DNA of 36,183 bases from a virus, in IMG/VR virus record IMGVR_UViG_3300027898_000023, positions 1 through 36,183 of that record; one strand, written 5' to 3'. The notes under the pieces were generated by a model. It was not told the DNA's origin. It saw only the letters and a program-made list of their open reading frames with translations, and searched no databases. Every line of letters begins with the position of its first letter. Positions within the stretch are counted from its first letter, which is position 1. Of the stretch, positions 17,244 through 23,039 are shown one piece after another. The position numbers and the translations under genes were made by a program.

Positions 17244-17872
17244 CAGTCCTCCGTTGAGGCGTTGCATTGTTTACAATACTGGTACTTGCGCCATCCGCTG
17301 TTATAATCGGCCCAGTCGTGTCGCCCTGACTTACAGTCCACGCGTGGGGCAGAACTGTTAGCCAGGGCTATGTATGCTGTCTCAACAAACTCTCTAGCCT
17401 CTGTAAAAGCAGGACTCGACCCGTTAGGCGTTATCTCGCAAAGAACATATGAATCAGTATCAAGGTTTCGACGTACAACCTCAAACACCTTGTCGTCAGG
17501 AAGATCCGTACCCCAGACGATTGGTACCAGCTGCTGACCGATATCGTATTTATGTTTTACTGCTGCTACAAGGGAAGCGTATTGAACGGGCAGGATTTGA
17601 GTAAGATGATGGCTTGTTAAAGTGCTGGGTTGAACCGTGGGATTTGTTAGGATAAGCGGTAGACCCGCGGCATTACAAAGCACCATGTTTTTAAGGCCTA
17701 ACCTAGACACAGTAGTGAAAGTGTTTTCGAGGCTAGGGAAAGCTGTGTTTAGAACTCGTTTAACTGTGATAAAATAGATATTACCTGGGTCGTCTTCAAT
17801 TACCTGATACACGTATGTGTAAGCTTTCTGTTTTGGGTCTGTAAAATAATCGCCGACTTGAAACTTGCTCAT
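17243..17872 (-). CDS. Hypothetical protein with C-terminal zinc-finger-like motif
   Basis: 209 residues from ATG 17872 (AAGGAG six bases upstream; ATGA overlap with the subtilase stop). The N-terminal part 'FQVGDYFTDPKQKAYTYVYQVIEDD' is a small beta domain. The last ~25 residues contain a Cys/His cluster (CKSGRHDW...YCKQC) compatible with zinc binding. No known family recognised. Confidence 0.5.
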   Translation of the reverse strand: MSKFQVGDYFTDPKQKAYTYVYQVIEDDPGNIYFITVKRVLNTAFPSLENTFTTVSRLGLKNMVLCNAAGLPLILTNPTVQPSTLTSHHLTQILPVQYASLVAAVKHKYDIGQQLVPIVWGTDLPDDKVFEVVRRNLDTDSYVLCEITPNGSSPAFTEAREFVETAYIALANSSAPRVDCKSGRHDWADYNSGWRKYQYCKQCNASTED

Positions 17873-18627
17873 TTTTGACTCCTTATCCATTTACCGGTTG
17901 CTACCGCTGTAGCCTGGGATGTTCCTGTCATCGTTATCCCGTACCCTGTAACATTAACACCGATCTCCCACACGTTCAATCTTTTTCCGTAGTTTGAGCC
18001 GGTATGATACGTTCCATCTTGATTCAGGTTGCCAACGACGATCACGCGAGGGTCTGCCATAGCTGGGTAGAAATGAAATTTGTCGATATCCAGGCCATAG
18101 TTACCGGCTGCTGCAAACATCTTTCCGCCGTGGTCTAAATATGATCGGACGGCAGCGTCTTCGTCTGAATCTTCAGCATTCCCGCCTCCGCTGAAGTTGA
18201 TCACGTCGGCATGAAGTTCTTCCGCGTATCTGATGGCTCTGACGGCAGCTTTACCCGTCAGATCGCGAGACATGTTAGGATCAAAATATTTAAGAACGAT
18301 GATACAGAAGTTTAAAGGTCCGGCTGTATCTTGGATAACACCGACGATATTGGTGCCATGGCTGTCGTTATCTTTGGGAACAGGGGTTGAGATACCTAGG
18401 AATAGTTTAGACCCCAGGTTTGTAAAGTCGCGATGGCCGTAGCGACAGAGTCGGTTGTTGCCCCAGGCACCAGCGTTATCGTATCCGAACCCGGTGTCGA
18501 TGACAGCGATTCGTAGCTGATGAGCGCCTTCAGGGTTACGGACGAGGGGCTGACAGGATTGTTGTAGCGAGGCGATAAGGAGTGCTACCAGGGTTATGTA
18601 TGTTACGAATAATAGATCACGTTTCAT
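17869..18627 (-). CDS. Secreted subtilisin-like serine protease
   Basis: 252 residues from ATG 18627, chosen because it forms an ATGA overlap with the upstream stop and begins with a signal sequence (KRDLLFVTYITLVALLIASLQQSC). The peptidase S8 triad is present: Asp44 (AVIDTGFG), His90 (DSHGTNIVG) and Ser227 (MTGTSQATA), with oxyanion Asn166 (AAAGNYG). There is no propeptide. The QQSC cleavage region is a weak lipobox. A phage-encoded exported subtilase could modify envelope proteins or aid lysis; virion protein processing is less likely given the signal peptide. Confidence 0.8.
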   Translation of the reverse strand: MKRDLLFVTYITLVALLIASLQQSCQPLVRNPEGAHQLRIAVIDTGFGYDNAGAWGNNRLCRYGHRDFTNLGSKLFLGISTPVPKDNDSHGTNIVGVIQDTAGPLNFCIIVLKYFDPNMSRDLTGKAAVRAIRYAEELHADVINFSGGGNAEDSDEDAAVRSYLDHGGKMFAAAGNYGLDIDKFHFYPAMADPRVIVVGNLNQDGTYHTGSNYGKRLNVWEIGVNVTGYGITMTGTSQATAVATGKWIRSQK

Positions 18628-18818
18628 TCGGAGTCCTCGTGATCCATAGCTGCAAATAGAGTAGCCGGAAACACAGGTATAAATAAAACCCATCCTAATA
18701 TACAAAGGTACGGATGATCTTTCACTTGAGATGCGAGTAAAGCACACAGTCCTACAATTAAAACAACACCGACGCTTATTATTAATGCTACACAGTATTC
18801 GCGTAAAAAAGTTTTCAT
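18624..18818 (-). CDS. Two-span membrane protein, holin candidate
   Basis: 64 residues with two hydrophobic helices at about 10-32 and 39-58, joined by a short charged turn (SQVKDHPY), and an acidic tail. Size and topology fit class II holins, although many unrelated small phage membrane proteins look similar. It overlaps the secreted subtilase gene (ATGA), which links the two functionally or at least in expression. Confidence 0.5.
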   Translation of the reverse strand: MKTFLREYCVALIISVGVVLIVGLCALLASQVKDHPYLCILGWVLFIPVFPATLFAAMDHEDSE

Positions 18819-18955
18819 GTATCCCCTTTGTATTTAATATTACCGCAGATTTCGCACTGTAACACGCATTCATGGCAGCCTCTGTATTGTATTTCTCGAA
18901 CTAATCTCCATTTATGCGGGCATAATCCTAATAAAAATCTTAAAAATCGAATCAT
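18815..18955 (-). CDS. Small cysteine-rich protein
   Basis: 46 residues from ATG 18955. Cysteines in 'CPHKW...CHEC...CEIC' suggest a small zinc ribbon. No family recognised. Overlaps the next gene by four bases. Confidence 0.45.
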   Translation of the reverse strand: MIRFLRFLLGLCPHKWRLVREIQYRGCHECVLQCEICGNIKYKGDT

Positions 18956-19352: not shown

Positions 19353-20381
19353 TTAATTTCTTTTAGGGTAGGGAAATGTTTCAAACTGAATCGTTTTTTT
19401 AAGTTGCTTTTCTTCGCGTTTGTCTTTACCTAAGATAAGCGCGTACTTGCCTTTAGCTGGCTGAGTGACTACTGTGTAACGCGCAATTTCTTCGTTCGCA
19501 CGGGCCGTTAACTTTAATCTTATGTCGTTAGGAATAGCAGAGATGTCTTGATACCCGTTAGGTTTGCACCATTCTTTCTGCCATTTGATGCCTAATTGTT
19601 TTGCCCATCTCTTCATTGCAGACGTTTTCGTAAAGTCTCGTTTGCTAACTATCTTACCTGAGGGTAACTGTACGCCACTCGTAACTCCCCACTGCTGACC
19701 TAGGTATAAAAAATTACATGCCTGGTAAATTGTTCCGATCTCACCAGCGGAAGGGTCTGAATAACAAGTAAACAGTCTTTTATGCGTGTTATCCACCATC
19801 CAGCGACACGCAAACATGACTAACCTACTATTAAGGTTTTTAGGGGCCCAGCTTGCAGCCGCACCTCGTTGAATCAAAGCTTCAAACTGTTTATATCGGG
19901 TTGGCATGGTGGGTTCTGACATAAGCACGACGCAAGCCAGCTTACCCTCGTGTCGGGCTGTAAAGCACCATTTTACTGCCCACCCAACTTTCCCTAACCA
20001 CTCGTACCTTTCAATGAATCTGATGTGCTCTTTTGACATGTTTTCAGCCGTCAACTCAAAGTCTTGAGCTTTTAGATCAAATCTAAACCCGGCGGCTAAA
20101 TCTTCAGCAACCGTGTCGTCCCTTCTAATTTTTTGCCAGCAAACTCCGTCTAGCTTTATGTCTGGTTTAACCGGAGCACTGGTGGTGTTTTTAAACTTTT
20201 TAACGACAGATTTAGCGGTTTTAACGCGTTCGGGGTTAAGTAGTTTAAGAGTCTTAGGATGTCGTCTAGCTTCGGCTCTGCACACCTTACACCTGTAAGC
20301 ATAGCCGTCTTTGTTTGCGGTTTTGCGACTAAACATTTCTAAAGGTTTAATTTGTTTGCATTTAGAGCATTTTTTATTCAT
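19353..20381 (-). CDS. Mom-like GNAT-fold protein with N-terminal zinc ribbon
   Basis: 342 residues. The N-terminus holds a zinc-ribbon pattern, CSKC (5-8) and CKVC (31-34), typical of phage HNH-type nucleases. A basic linker leads to a core with 'RYEWLG' (125-130), 'NLNSRLVMFACRWMVD' (~182-197), 'CYSDP' (206-210) and 'GTIYQACNFLYLG' (216-228), a pattern shared with the Mom family, whose Mu member modifies adenine in DNA. The start ATG lies inside the end of the nuclease gene. A DNA-modifying role is inferred from the family pattern; no homology search was possible. Confidence 0.6.
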   Translation of the reverse strand: MNKKCSKCKQIKPLEMFSRKTANKDGYAYRCKVCRAEARRHPKTLKLLNPERVKTAKSVVKKFKNTTSAPVKPDIKLDGVCWQKIRRDDTVAEDLAAGFRFDLKAQDFELTAENMSKEHIRFIERYEWLGKVGWAVKWCFTARHEGKLACVVLMSEPTMPTRYKQFEALIQRGAAASWAPKNLNSRLVMFACRWMVDNTHKRLFTCYSDPSAGEIGTIYQACNFLYLGQQWGVTSGVQLPSGKIVSKRDFTKTSAMKRWAKQLGIKWQKEWCKPNGYQDISAIPNDIRLKLTARANEEIARYTVVTQPAKGKYALILGKDKREEKQLKKTIQFETFPYPKRN

Positions 20382-20838
20382 GTTTACCGTGCTTTTTTAA
20401 ATAATTGATAGCTTTTTGTAAAGTTTGTATGTCGTCTTTAAATCGTCCTAATCCATTGTTACAGTTGTAACACAAAAGACCCCTTACAGCACCGCTGACG
20501 TGGTCGTGATCCACATGAAGCAATTTAGCAGAATGGCCAAGCGCGCATCTACCGCCCTGCTCGTTAAACATTCGTTCCCATTCGGCTAGCGCTTGGGGGC
20601 CTGTTAAATGAGGCCAATATTTTTTAGACAATTTTTTGCCTCGAATCTCGTCTGCATGTTTTTTGTTGTACGCTTTGTTGCGTTCGTTATCGTTAGGGTT
20701 ACGAGACCTATAGTCTATACGTTCTGCATACCTACAATCTTTGCATCGGGATTTAAGGCCTATGGTACCGTTGTGATACCGCCGGACGTCGAACTCTGAG
20801 TGTGGTTTTGATATGCCGCATTTTTTACAAGTTTTCAT
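20374..20838 (-). CDS. Endonuclease VII-like His-Me finger nuclease
   Basis: 154 residues from ATG 20838; a longer frame to 20916 would run through the terminator. Residues 1-35 carry a zinc-binding pattern CKKC...CKDC. The C-terminal half has the recombination endonuclease VII signature: C98 in 'GRCALGH', His108-Asp110-His111-His113 (LHVDHDHV), then 'GAVRGLLCYNCNNGLGRFKDD'. The family cuts branched DNA or acts as a mobile nuclease. The gene follows a strong terminator and precedes the Mom-like gene, so the pair may be an inserted module. No Shine-Dalgarno sequence is seen; a TATAG motif ends five bases before the ATG. Confidence 0.75.
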   Translation of the reverse strand: MKTCKKCGISKPHSEFDVRRYHNGTIGLKSRCKDCRYAERIDYRSRNPNDNERNKAYNKKHADEIRGKKLSKKYWPHLTGPQALAEWERMFNEQGGRCALGHSAKLLHVDHDHVSGAVRGLLCYNCNNGLGRFKDDIQTLQKAINYLKKHGKHE

Positions 20839-20842
20839 GATT

Positions 20843-20867
20843 CTATAGTGCCACACATCTGTGTGGC
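20843..20867 (-). promoter_or_regulatory. Hairpin plus CACTATAG promoter-like motif
   Basis: Minus strand: hairpin GCCACAC/GTGTGGC (20867-20861 with 20856-20850) runs into CACTATAG (20850-20843), directly before the endonuclease ATG. Its last 12 bases partly match the 20-mer promoter (GGC..TATAG). It could be a weaker variant promoter giving an almost leaderless mRNA; low certainty. Confidence 0.3.
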
Positions 20868-20874
20868 TTGCAAT

Positions 20875-20902
20875 AAAAAACCCAGGGATTTTTGCCCCTG
20901 GG
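20875..20902 (-). terminator. Rho-independent terminator after the major capsid gene
   Basis: Minus strand: a perfect 7-bp stem CCCAGGG (20902-20896 on the 5' side) with CCCTGGG (20887-20881), followed by TTTTTT (20880-20875). It lies 31 bases after the capsid stop and ends the head gene transcript. Confidence 0.85.
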
Positions 20903-20932
20903 TCAAAATGATACATTTTATTTTAAGTCAGG

Positions 20933-22081
20933 TTAAGCCGACAACTGGACAACGCAGTTCCAGCCGGGGGCCGAACAAATCAAGTTGCCGTAGTAGGCAA
21001 TACGAATTTCAAGGGCATCGGCTGATCCGACTCGTAGTCCCTCGAGACCTTCCATACCATAGGTGAGTATGTGCGGAACCTTGCCCAACGAGCGCAGTTT
21101 CCATGTATTCATAGTCAACAGGTATGCCGTCTGAGGAGGGCACGATCTGTCGGCCAACACAGTTACGCGGCCATAAGCAGATTGGAAGGTGATACCTTCA
21201 AACGCTACCTCAACCTCGTCGTGGTTAACTTGGACGTATTGCACTTTAGCACCCAAAGCGTTGACTAGAGCAGCATAACTAGCGAAATCCATGATACAAA
21301 GATCGGGTTTTCCGCCCTCTCTGTTCAAGAACGCCAGTGCGCTTGTCATACCTTCCTCAATCGTCTGGGACTGAGCGTTATAACGCAATCCAGCCAAACG
21401 AGTGGGGTCTGCGGACCTGTTAACGCCCCAGAATGAGTCACTAGAACTTGGTGAAGTTGTAGGAATCCATGCAGCCAAACCAGACAATGCCAGGTTAGAA
21501 GCGGTTCCTAAAGCACCAGTTGAAGGGATATCACCAGCAATCGACAGGTAAGCTTGTCCTGATCCGATAGCCCAGTTACTAGACAACGTGGCAGCCGATG
21601 CTGTACCAGTGATAACACCAGTTGCACGGTTAACAGCTGTAACAGTAACTGTATCAGAAGAAGGCACTCCACCAGCAGAAGTTGATGCTACTAAAAGCAT
21701 TCCAACCTCAAACGCAACGATCTGTTGAGCGTTTGTCAAAGGCAGAACGACTCCACCAGCAGCAGTACCGCCAGTTTGAGACGAACTAGAGCTAGAGATA
21801 CCACGGGTAGCAGTACCATCACCAAACAGCTCGAACGCTATGTTATTGGTAATATTACGAAATCCCGCATCCATCTGTAACTTGGCAGCATCAACAAAAG
21901 CGCCAGCATTACTTTTAGTTTGTTCCATCAAAAGGTTAGTAATTGTAACCAGTTGATAGTCTTCCACCACATAAACGAAGAAACTAGCAAGCGATGTTGC
22001 AGTTTGTTGGTTTTGGGCGTTAGAGAACGTATGAGAACGACCTTGGGGTGTTCCATACTCTAATGGTACGGGGATATATTT
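20933..22081 (-). CDS. Major capsid protein, exon 3 of 3 (bulk of the gene)
   Basis: Encodes the C-terminal 382 residues, beginning 'KYIPVPLEYGTPQGRS'. The frame has no start of its own at its true 5' end. Joining exon 1 (22949-23039), exon 2 (22847-22908) and this exon gives a continuous 433-residue protein whose N-terminus (ALKELYTDDKEYMKDLVYKE + NPFLALVPKNESPDG) matches, in order, the start of capsid proteins in related phages as I know them. The Ser/Gly/Thr-rich stretch at 'GISSSSSSQTGG' is a plausible surface loop. It follows the scaffold gene and ends before a strong terminator. Fold assumed HK97-like; no motif proves it. Confidence 0.8.
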   Translation of the reverse strand, partial: KYIPVPLEYGTPQGRSHTFSNAQNQQTATSLASFFVYVVEDYQLVTITNLLMEQTKSNAGAFVDAAKLQMDAGFRNITNNIAFELFGDGTATRGISSSSSSQTGGTAAGGVVLPLTNAQQIVAFEVGMLLVASTSAGGVPSSDTVTVTAVNRATGVITGTASAATLSSNWAIGSGQAYLSIAGDIPSTGALGTASNLALSGLAAWIPTTSPSSSDSFWGVNRSADPTRLAGLRYNAQSQTIEEGMTSALAFLNREGGKPDLCIMDFASYAALVNALGAKVQYVQVNHDEVEVAFEGITFQSAYGRVTVLADRSCPPQTAYLLTMNTWKLRSLGKVPHILTYGMEGLEGLRVGSADALEIRIAYYGNLICSAPGWNCVVQLSA

Positions 22082-22846
22082 CAGTGGCCTTTCGGCCTGT
22101 TATCGTAGTGGCTTTTTATCCTCTACTTCTTACAGTTTCCTGTAAGCTCAGCGTACATTTTCATCTTTTAAAGATGCAGAACACTCTTGGGAGTTTTTTA
22201 TTCTGTTACTACCGCCCTTGCTTATATTTTCATCTGCCCACATTGGTTGCAGATTAGTATAATGAGCGGCTTGTTTGAATTGCTCGGAATCCGTTAAATC
22301 AAATAAAGACAAAGCCTTAATATGATCTACGTGCCATCCATCTACTCCCCAATTTTCCCAAGACATTCCTGGTTGAAATTTAGATTCTAGATAGGTTTTT
22401 AACTCAGCTACAGAACACCCTAGGTCTTTTACTGCCGAACCTTTTTTATCGCCACGTGTGAAAAATTTTCCAATTCTTGTACGTAAATTATGCGCAATTC
22501 TAAAGTTTAGGTCAGTATTAAATCTAGTTTGCCAATCTTTGTTAATGGCTTCCTTGTTTTTTATCCTAAAAGCTTTTTTCTTAGCTTTTAAAATATCAGC
22601 GTTTTTAGCCTTATACTCTCTCATGTAAGCCTGTTTTGCTGGCGACATATTTCTATGCTGACGGCAAACTCCGATCTTATTATGTTTATTGAGTTTTTTG
22701 CTACAAACACTGCAATTCACAGTTTCAACTCCTACGCGTTACGGTGGCTAAGTTATGTTATTATCCTAGCTTACCTCGGTATTCCCTTGGCTGTCAAGCT
22801 TTAGGGTTCACCGATTTTGTTCTGTTTAACGCTGGCAATTATATCT
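22082..22846 (-). other. Group I intron (765 nt) in the capsid gene
   Basis: The 5' exon end CGCTGGT pairs with intron GCCAGCG as P1, with a U.G pair at the splice site. ATATAATT before it pairs (7 of 8) with the 3' exon start AAATATAT as P10. The intron ends in G (22082). CGGT/ACCG (22813-22810 with 22780-22777) and CCCT/AGGG (22806-22803 with 22787-22784) form P4-P5. CGTAG (22736-22732) pairs with CTACG (22108-22104) as P7. Terminal GNRA hairpins CTTACAG-GAAA-CTGTAAG and GGCC-GAAA-GGCC precede the 3' end. Splicing joins GGT to AAA in frame. An HNH gene lies inside. Confidence 0.75.
22148..22720 (-). CDS. HNH homing endonuclease inside the intron
   Basis: 190 residues from GTG 22720 with AGGAG eight bases upstream. 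Residues 3-21 hold a cysteine/histidine zinc pattern (CSVCSKK...CRQH). The HNH core lies at 'WHVDHIKALSLFDL' (His130, Asp132, His133) and 'YTNLQPMWADENISKGG' (Asn156, Asn165). Such enzymes spread their host intron by cutting intron-lacking alleles. The gene occupies the loop between the P7 strands, and the frame's end is followed by the P9-like hairpins. Its codon use appears more A/T-rich than its neighbours. Confidence 0.85.
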   Translation of the reverse strand: MNCSVCSKKLNKHNKIGVCRQHRNMSPAKQAYMREYKAKNADILKAKKKAFRIKNKEAINKDWQTRFNTDLNFRIAHNLRTRIGKFFTRGDKKGSAVKDLGCSVAELKTYLESKFQPGMSWENWGVDGWHVDHIKALSLFDLTDSEQFKQAAHYTNLQPMWADENISKGGSNRIKNSQECSASLKDENVR

Positions 22847-22908
22847 ACCAGCGAATCCGTCTGGCGACTCATTCTTGGGCACTAGGGCCAAAAATGGGTT
22901 CTCCTTAT
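22847..22908 (-). CDS. Major capsid protein, exon 2 of 3
   Basis: A 62-nt coding island: the last two bases of a Tyr codon, then K E N P F L A L V P K N E S P D G F A G. It supplies exactly the 20 residues missing between exons 1 and 3 in the capsid N-terminal arm. Its first six bases ATAAGG pair with CCTTAT inside the 40-nt insert before it. Confidence 0.8.
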
Positions 22909-22948
22909 CGTTTTCCAGAGGATTATCTCGGCATAAGGTATTGAAATT
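22909..22948 (-). other. 40-nt core-less group I-like mini-intron
   Basis: Removing these 40 bases restores the capsid frame (GTG T + AT AAG gives Val-Tyr-Lys); leaving them gives an immediate TAA stop. The 5' exon ATCTCG(T)GT (22957-22949) pairs with GCCGAGAT (22932-22925) as P1, with one bulged U and U.G at the splice site. CCTTAT (22938-22933), just 5' of that G, pairs perfectly with the 3' exon start ATAAGG (22908-22903) as P10. The insert ends in G. Only 16 nt follow P1, so no catalytic core can fit. Confidence 0.7.
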
Positions 22949-23039
22949 ACACGAGATCTTTCATATATTCTTTATCGTCAGTATATAATTCTTTTAAAGC
23001 AGCGATCTGATTCGCGCTATTTGCATATACAGCAGCCAT
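22949..23039 (-). CDS. Major capsid protein, exon 1 of 3
   Basis: Encodes 30 residues from ATG 23039 (GGAG six bases upstream) plus the first base of Tyr31: an N-terminal arm with 'NQIAALKELYTDDKEYMKDLV'. An in-frame TAA follows unless the 40-nt insert is removed. A small hairpin CCCCA-TGG-TGGGG (23085-23073) lies in the 5' untranslated region after the scaffold stop. Confidence 0.8.

Follow-up and report, generated by a model that had tools for sequence, protein, structure and literature searches.

A 40-nt insert in a phage major capsid gene probably represents a guide-only group I intron that lacks a catalytic core and that would be excised at the RNA level by the core of a full group I intron located downstream in the same gene. 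We refer to such inserts as mini-introns. This one was found in a 36,183-nt stretch of viral DNA (hereafter, the window), whose major capsid gene, encoded on the minus strand, is interrupted twice: by the 40-nt insert and by an intron of 765 nt. Spliced alignment places the insert exactly at positions 22909–22948 (minus strand; AATTTC...AAAACG), with a U directly before it and a G as its last nucleotide. Exon 1 (22949–23039, minus strand), as read from the joined-exon translation, encodes MAAVY...KDLV and the first base of a Tyr codon and is conserved in intact relatives. Exon 2 (22847–22908, minus strand; YKENPFLALVPKNESPDGFAG) separates the mini-intron from the full intron and is 62 nt long, and exon 3 (20933–22081, minus strand) runs from KYIPVPLEYG to the stop codon and matches PF17236 (SU10_MCP) and phrog_9953. 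The three exons joined together encode an unbroken SU10-like major capsid protein of 433 amino acids followed by a stop codon, and the intact relatives of this gene present the same sequence without a break. In the unspliced transcript, exon 1, whose 3' end reads ...GATCTCGTGT, runs straight into a stop codon (GTG TAA). These results confirm two elements of the original prediction: the insert in the capsid gene is real, since removing it together with the 765-nt intron restores the intact protein, and TAA directly follows exon 1. The element had been placed at 22909–22957, but only its first 40 positions constitute the insert; the extra 9 nt belong to exon 1, where they form a strand of P1. 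Finally, because inserts of the same type were found in dozens of independent contigs, an assembly artefact can be excluded.

The insert pairs with both of its flanking exons. The hexamer CCTTAT (22933–22938, minus strand) forms P10 with the start of exon 2, ATAAGG (22908–22903), through six perfect pairs. The P1 guide GCCGAGAT (22925–22932, minus strand) pairs with the end of exon 1 (ATCTCGtGT), with a U.G pair at the junction and one bulged U in the exon strand; the 5' strand of this P1 corresponds to the last 9 nt of exon 1, ATCTCGTGT (22957–22949, minus strand). Both pairings had been proposed initially, as had the terminal G, and all three are present as described, the insert ending in AAAACG. 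The combined P1 and P10 pairing of this single insert was significant relative to shuffled inserts (p = 0.005). We further identified a third helix, which we call Px. Its strand in the insert, AATCCTCTGG (22915–22924, minus strand), lies directly after the P1 guide and pairs with the end of exon 2 (22864–22854, CCAGAcGGATT). The exon bases immediately following the Px strand, CGCTGGT (22853–22847), constitute the P1 strand of the full intron. The P1 of the mini-intron, Px and the P1 of the full intron are consecutive without a gap, and the same arrangement is obtained in the unconstrained fold (z = −4.05). The original prediction had correctly counted that only 16 nt remain in the insert but overlooked that 10 of these form Px with exon 2. 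It had likewise overlooked the full group I intron downstream, the tie between Px and that intron, and the recurrence of the inserts in at least three capsid families.

The full intron of the window (22082–22846, minus strand; 765 nt) ends in ...CACTG and possesses the terminal G. Its P1 guide, GCCAGCG (22836–22830), forms a P1 with a U.G pair, and its core contains P3 (CAGAACA, 22824–22818, and TGTTCTG, 22183–22177), P7 (GCGTA, 22737–22733, and TACGC, 22155–22151) and P8 (22176–22162), all on the minus strand; it has no P2. These pairings were read from the sequence and checked, and the same positions covary in relatives: P3, P7 and P8 follow the canonical order, and P3 and P7 covary (read by eye in aligned relatives and checked in the window), and the P7 of the relatives reads GACTA/TAGTC within textbook R and S segments. 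The structure, with core pairings read by eye, indicates that the partner in the window is a group I intron. The Rfam group I model (RF00028) matched neither the window nor the related loci nor the compact relatives with textbook P3 and P7, and this model appears insensitive to this intron lineage. Because textbook compact introns are also missed, we gave no weight to the missing Rfam match as evidence. Introns of about 200 nt with textbook P3 and P7 (L016, L391, L075 and others) are not seen by Rfam, which implies that phage surveys based on Rfam miss this lineage. The full intron also contains an open reading frame of 190 amino acids (22148–22720, minus strand), which lies between the 5' strand of P7 and the end of its 3' strand and presents a weak match to the endonuclease VII family phrog_1035. 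The 3' end of this frame codes across the 3' strand of P3, P8 and the 3' strand of P7, and its stop codon TGA (22150–22148) is located just past the latter. A separate endonuclease VII gene (20374–20916) lies just downstream of the capsid gene and adjoins the gene of a Mom-like DNA modification protein (19353–20381, minus strand; PF25680, phrog_1384), whose N-terminus contains a zinc-ribbon-like segment that it shares with endonuclease VII-type proteins. The phage genome also encodes a subtilisin-like serine protease (17869–18873, minus strand; PF00082).

We found a total of 44 distinct inserts of 28–63 nt in two capsid families. For the family of the window (family A), searching viral contigs with the protein sequence of exon 3 yielded 77 loci, and a profile search added more. 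Loci were analyzed by spliced alignment, in which breaks were allowed anywhere and in any phase without splice-site preference. The gene is unbroken in most family A loci, and many loci carry inserts of 30–63 nt, which occupy eight sites in all (residues 22, 28, 30, 31, 34, 46, 51 and 408). The insert-bearing loci of this family also carry full introns of 180–890 nt. Indels of 12–21 nt at residue 157 and at residues 184–237 are multiples of three; they were considered ordinary codon differences and left out, and two loci were left out as misalignments (L073 and L074; a distant homologue and a partial gene). No match to family A was found in the phage database, and a scan of genome contigs for relatives found none. 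The second family (family B; phrog_1357, PF25209) was found by applying a de novo detector to loci fetched by intron-core patterns, and its sample consists of 80 fetched relatives together with the pattern loci. It presents 20 distinct mini-introns of 28–40 nt at residues 90–95, in each case with a full intron after it at residue 100, 108 or 125; full introns located elsewhere in family B (e.g., 18 at residue 107) are never accompanied by a mini-intron. The de novo scan added further mini-introns, including those of a third family of P22-coat-like genes (PF11651). Four of these genes contain mini-introns of 34–41 nt, with the three-helix fold in three of the four, and intact relatives (Xanthomonas phage PBR31, MW202674) read through the mini-intron site unbroken. 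For the pattern-fetched loci, the background of the detector was about 2.5 shuffled versus 16 real matches per scan at first and 3 versus 25 with stricter settings, and the lowest-scoring real matches are probably due to chance.

The guide pairings seen in the window are shared by the other inserts. All 44 inserts are preceded by a U and end in a G, and among the first 22 distinct inserts this combination was available in every case among the one to three placements that are equivalent at the protein level; two later inserts fit as well. In a test permitting any pair at the splice site, a G was found opposite the last exon U in 22/22 inserts. A P1 containing the U.G pair occurs in 44/44 inserts, and P10 measures 4 bp or more in 43/44. 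The order of the guides is the same in each insert, with the bases before the G of this pair pairing with the start of the 3' exon and the bases after it with the 5' exon. The mean P1+P10 score was 12.5 when inserts were paired with their own exons versus 6.1 with the exons of other sites. We also observed compensating changes in both helices. In P1, the window has GATCTCG in the exon paired with CGAGAT in the insert, and L015 has GACCTCG paired with CGAGG; in P10, exon ATAAG pairs with CTTAT, exon ACAAA with TTTGT (L018), and exons AAA and AAG with TTT and CTT, respectively (L063). The exon side of these changes consists mostly of synonymous codon differences, which the non-coding insert follows. 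P10 is longer on average in the mini-introns than in the full introns (respectively, 5.2 and 3.0 bp; p = 5e-10), the two values coming from searches that scored P10 slightly differently. These results provide good support for the non-autonomous, core-less group I intron of the original prediction.

We further analyzed the third helix across the inserts. The pairing between the insert tail and exon 2 was strongly significant over 22 inserts (Fisher p about 2e-18), and Px also shows compensating changes on both sides. All three helices were recovered in the unconstrained minimum-energy fold for 40 of 43 inserts. The exon separating the mini-intron from the next intron measures 21–91 nt in all 44 cases except two (112 nt in L021 and 303 nt in L063). 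In 41/44 inserts, Px ends 5–9 nt (nearly always 7–8) before the 5' splice site of the next intron, compared with 16.1 expected from shuffled tails; when limiting the comparison to exons 2 of at least 45 nt, this abutment was found in 13/15 inserts versus 4.0 expected. The exceptions are L021 and L063, where Px does not abut the distant full intron, and, narrowly, the insert at residue 46 of L068. When the mini-intron is fixed at residue 31, Px is shifted downstream with a full intron at residue 55 relative to one at residue 51. Similarly, for mini-introns at residue 91 in family B, Px moves from about nucleotide 10 to about nucleotide 32 of exon 2 as the full intron moves from residue 100 to residue 108. 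The sequences thus indicate that the position of Px follows the full intron and not the mini-intron. Two loci present a pair of mini-introns before a single full intron (L005:307–477 and L077:2728–2917), and in both the first mini-intron has its Px directly against the 5' site of the second one. The orphan-like mini-intron of L021 (L021:3282–3393) has a Px that ends 8 nt before the residue-30 site, which is empty in this locus but occupied by a full intron in L001 and L072; this placement is possibly the trace of a lost partner intron.

The mini-introns are also strongly associated with full introns. Every mini-intron has a full group I intron downstream of it in its gene, and no mini-intron was found in intronless genes: 25/29 full-intron loci versus 0/60 intronless loci in family A (p = 3e-18) and 20/42 versus 0/37 in family B (p = 2e-7), with P-values that overstate independence because the loci are related by descent. 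Three mini-intron sites of family A (residues 51, 30 and 408) correspond to full-intron sites in other phages. The occurrence of core-less mini-introns at full-intron sites suggests that mini-introns arose from full introns that lost their core. The full introns of families A and B present two layouts, either a long P1 (7–9 bp) without P2 or a short P1 (4–5 bp) followed by a P2 hairpin. Nearly all partner introns lack P2, with the guide reaching P3 in about 8–10 nt; the exception is the partner at residue 53 of L068, which has a P2. We rejected the idea that the absence of P2 predicts a mini-intron, as many P2-less introns of family B have none. The lack of P2 looks permissive for a mini-intron, but not sufficient. 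Several capsid genes (L316, L414, L439, L444 and L077) contain between three and six introns, which is unusually dense for phage genes.

The catalytic core that defines group I introns (P3–P8, with the guanosine site in P7) is absent from the mini-introns, since 28–63 nt mostly taken by three guides leave no room for it. The initial statement that the insert cannot self-splice therefore stands, yet a catalytic core is available in cis: a complete core is found in the full intron downstream of all mini-introns, and the one in the window possesses P3, P7 and P8. Although the insert lacks the defining core of a group I intron, it would work like one by borrowing that of its neighbor. The mini-intron would act as a continuous strand of three guides, P10, P1 and Px, in which P10 and Px hold exon 2 by its start and its end, respectively, and P1 holds the end of exon 1; the 3' splice site of the mini-intron would sit in the Px loop. 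Group I introns usually present the guide, then P2, then P3. The order in the precursor would here be the P1 of the mini-intron, Px, the P1 of the full intron and the P3...P7 core; because Px lies against the P1 of the full intron and P2 is absent, Px would take the place of P2 and the P1 of the full intron that of P2.1. The core would dock the P1 of the mini-intron and guanosine would attack after the U at the 5' splice site; the strong P10 would then present the 3' site, allowing exon 1 to be ligated to exon 2; finally, the full intron would dock its own P1 and splice itself. Removal of the mini-intron before the full intron would be obligatory, and one ribozyme would remove two introns in turn. 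Direct splicing of exon 1 to exon 3 was rejected, as the P10 of the mini-intron matches exon 2 and the joining of exons 1 and 3 would read GTG TAA. Some observations speak against a borrowed core: the mini-intron has no P9.0 of its own to bring its terminal G to the guanosine site, Px does not abut the full intron in L021 and L063, and the partner at residue 53 of L068 has a P2. What is observed is the inserts, the three helices with their compensating changes, the tracking of the full intron by Px and the co-occurrence with full introns. It is likely, based on these patterns, that the group I introns of phage capsid genes include a non-autonomous class that retains nothing but guides. Some of these introns are chained in pairs (L005/L006 and L077), and a single ribozyme downstream would excise them in cis, always in the same order, by a relay of P1 helices.

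Other explanations of the inserts must be considered. Ribosomes might hop over the insert by translational bypass of the type found in T4 gene 60 or in the byps of Magnusiomyces mitochondria, since the inserts have a comparable length, form hairpins and in many cases contain an early stop codon. However, none of the 44 inserts has a landing triplet that agrees with the take-off codon or with its amino acid, which leaves the translational skipping suggested as an alternative in the original prediction unsupported. Moreover, three reading phases occur, the insert lengths are spread 13/15/16 over the three remainders modulo three, and bypass predicts neither the U and G at the insert boundaries nor the G.U junction pair, the P10 helix or the need for a group I intron downstream. 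Bypass is extremely unlikely. It is also very unlikely that the inserts represent assembly errors or dead remnants that lost their core and left a capsid gene that is broken or restarted at an internal codon. The insert does stop the frame, and exon 2 contains AAGGAG followed by TTG; but 44 distinct inserts from independent contigs retain the boundary U and G as well as the P1, P10 and Px helices, in which changes compensate each other, and the protein sequence of exon 1 is kept in loci with and without mini-introns.

A splicing reaction could instead be provided in trans, by the group I core of another transcript or of a free intron, or by a protein factor. Group I cores dock P1 independently of its base sequence and trans-acting versions have been engineered (PMC4094466), and two mini-introns (L021 and L063) have no adjacent partner. 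This explanation seems unlikely, as Px follows the position of the cis intron downstream and lies against the P1 of this intron, a helix that exists in the unspliced precursor only, and mini-introns were never found in genes without a full intron. Finally, homing immunity would concern the reason for the inserts rather than their chemistry: the mini-intron would spoil the cut site of the intron endonuclease and travel by co-conversion. Partner introns often encode endonucleases, and the mini-introns of family B are tied to certain full-intron sites (residues 100, 108 and 125, never 107). Against this, mini-introns also accompany partner introns of 195–251 nt, which are too small for an endonuclease gene (L016, L068, L072, L316, L391, L424 and L471), and Px is left unexplained. 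Homing immunity is possible but rather doubtful; it is compatible with excision by a borrowed core and may be a reason why mini-introns persist.

The spliceosome is believed to have arisen from group II introns that lost their autonomy. If our interpretation is true, introns reduced to guides and relying on the core of a neighbor would constitute a minimal group I parallel of this loss; among group I introns, they would be the natural equivalent of self-splicing giving way to a splicing machine that several introns share. It would also mean that very short introns (down to 28 nt) are hidden in essential phage genes, which gene callers read as broken capsid genes, and it would offer a compact design for guide-directed RNA excision.

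To our knowledge, all described natural group I introns carry their own catalytic core. Our search of the open literature yielded no description of a natural core-less group I intron, in line with the original prediction, whose author knew of no described case, and the nearest cases are engineered. The insert of T4 gene 60 is a 50-nt bypass element that acts in translation and presents matching take-off and landing codons; mini-introns are similarly short, located in phage genes and sometimes found near homing endonuclease genes, but such matching codons were found in none of the 44. Split mitochondrial group I introns are spliced in trans after their parts assemble by pairing into one complete intron. 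Assembly by pairing is alike in the mini-introns, but here one core would serve two introns and the exon between them would be kept. Trans excision-splicing ribozymes, reportedly engineered in the Testa laboratory, excise an internal segment and join its flanks. Engineered group I spliceozymes similarly use a group I core to excise an internal RNA segment and join its flanks (PMC4094466). Both act in trans through the recognition sequences of the ribozyme itself, whereas here the removed segment carries the guides and the proposed core is that of a natural cis intron that later removes itself. Tandem group I introns have been described in orf142 of phage Twort, where both introns have cores and exon skipping occurs (PMC10136302). 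As in this gene, two adjacent pairs of group I splice sites are found in one transcript, but the P10 of the mini-intron is matched to exon 2, which indicates that this exon is kept, unlike the skipped exon of orf142. Self-splicing group I introns of phages include those of td, Twort and Bastillevirinae (PMC11878797). Mini-introns share with them the U at the 5' splice site with a G.U pair in P1, the terminal G, P10 and the order of the guides (P10, then P1), but they differ by the absence of the P3–P9 core, by their length of 28–63 nt and by the third guide that ties them to the next intron.
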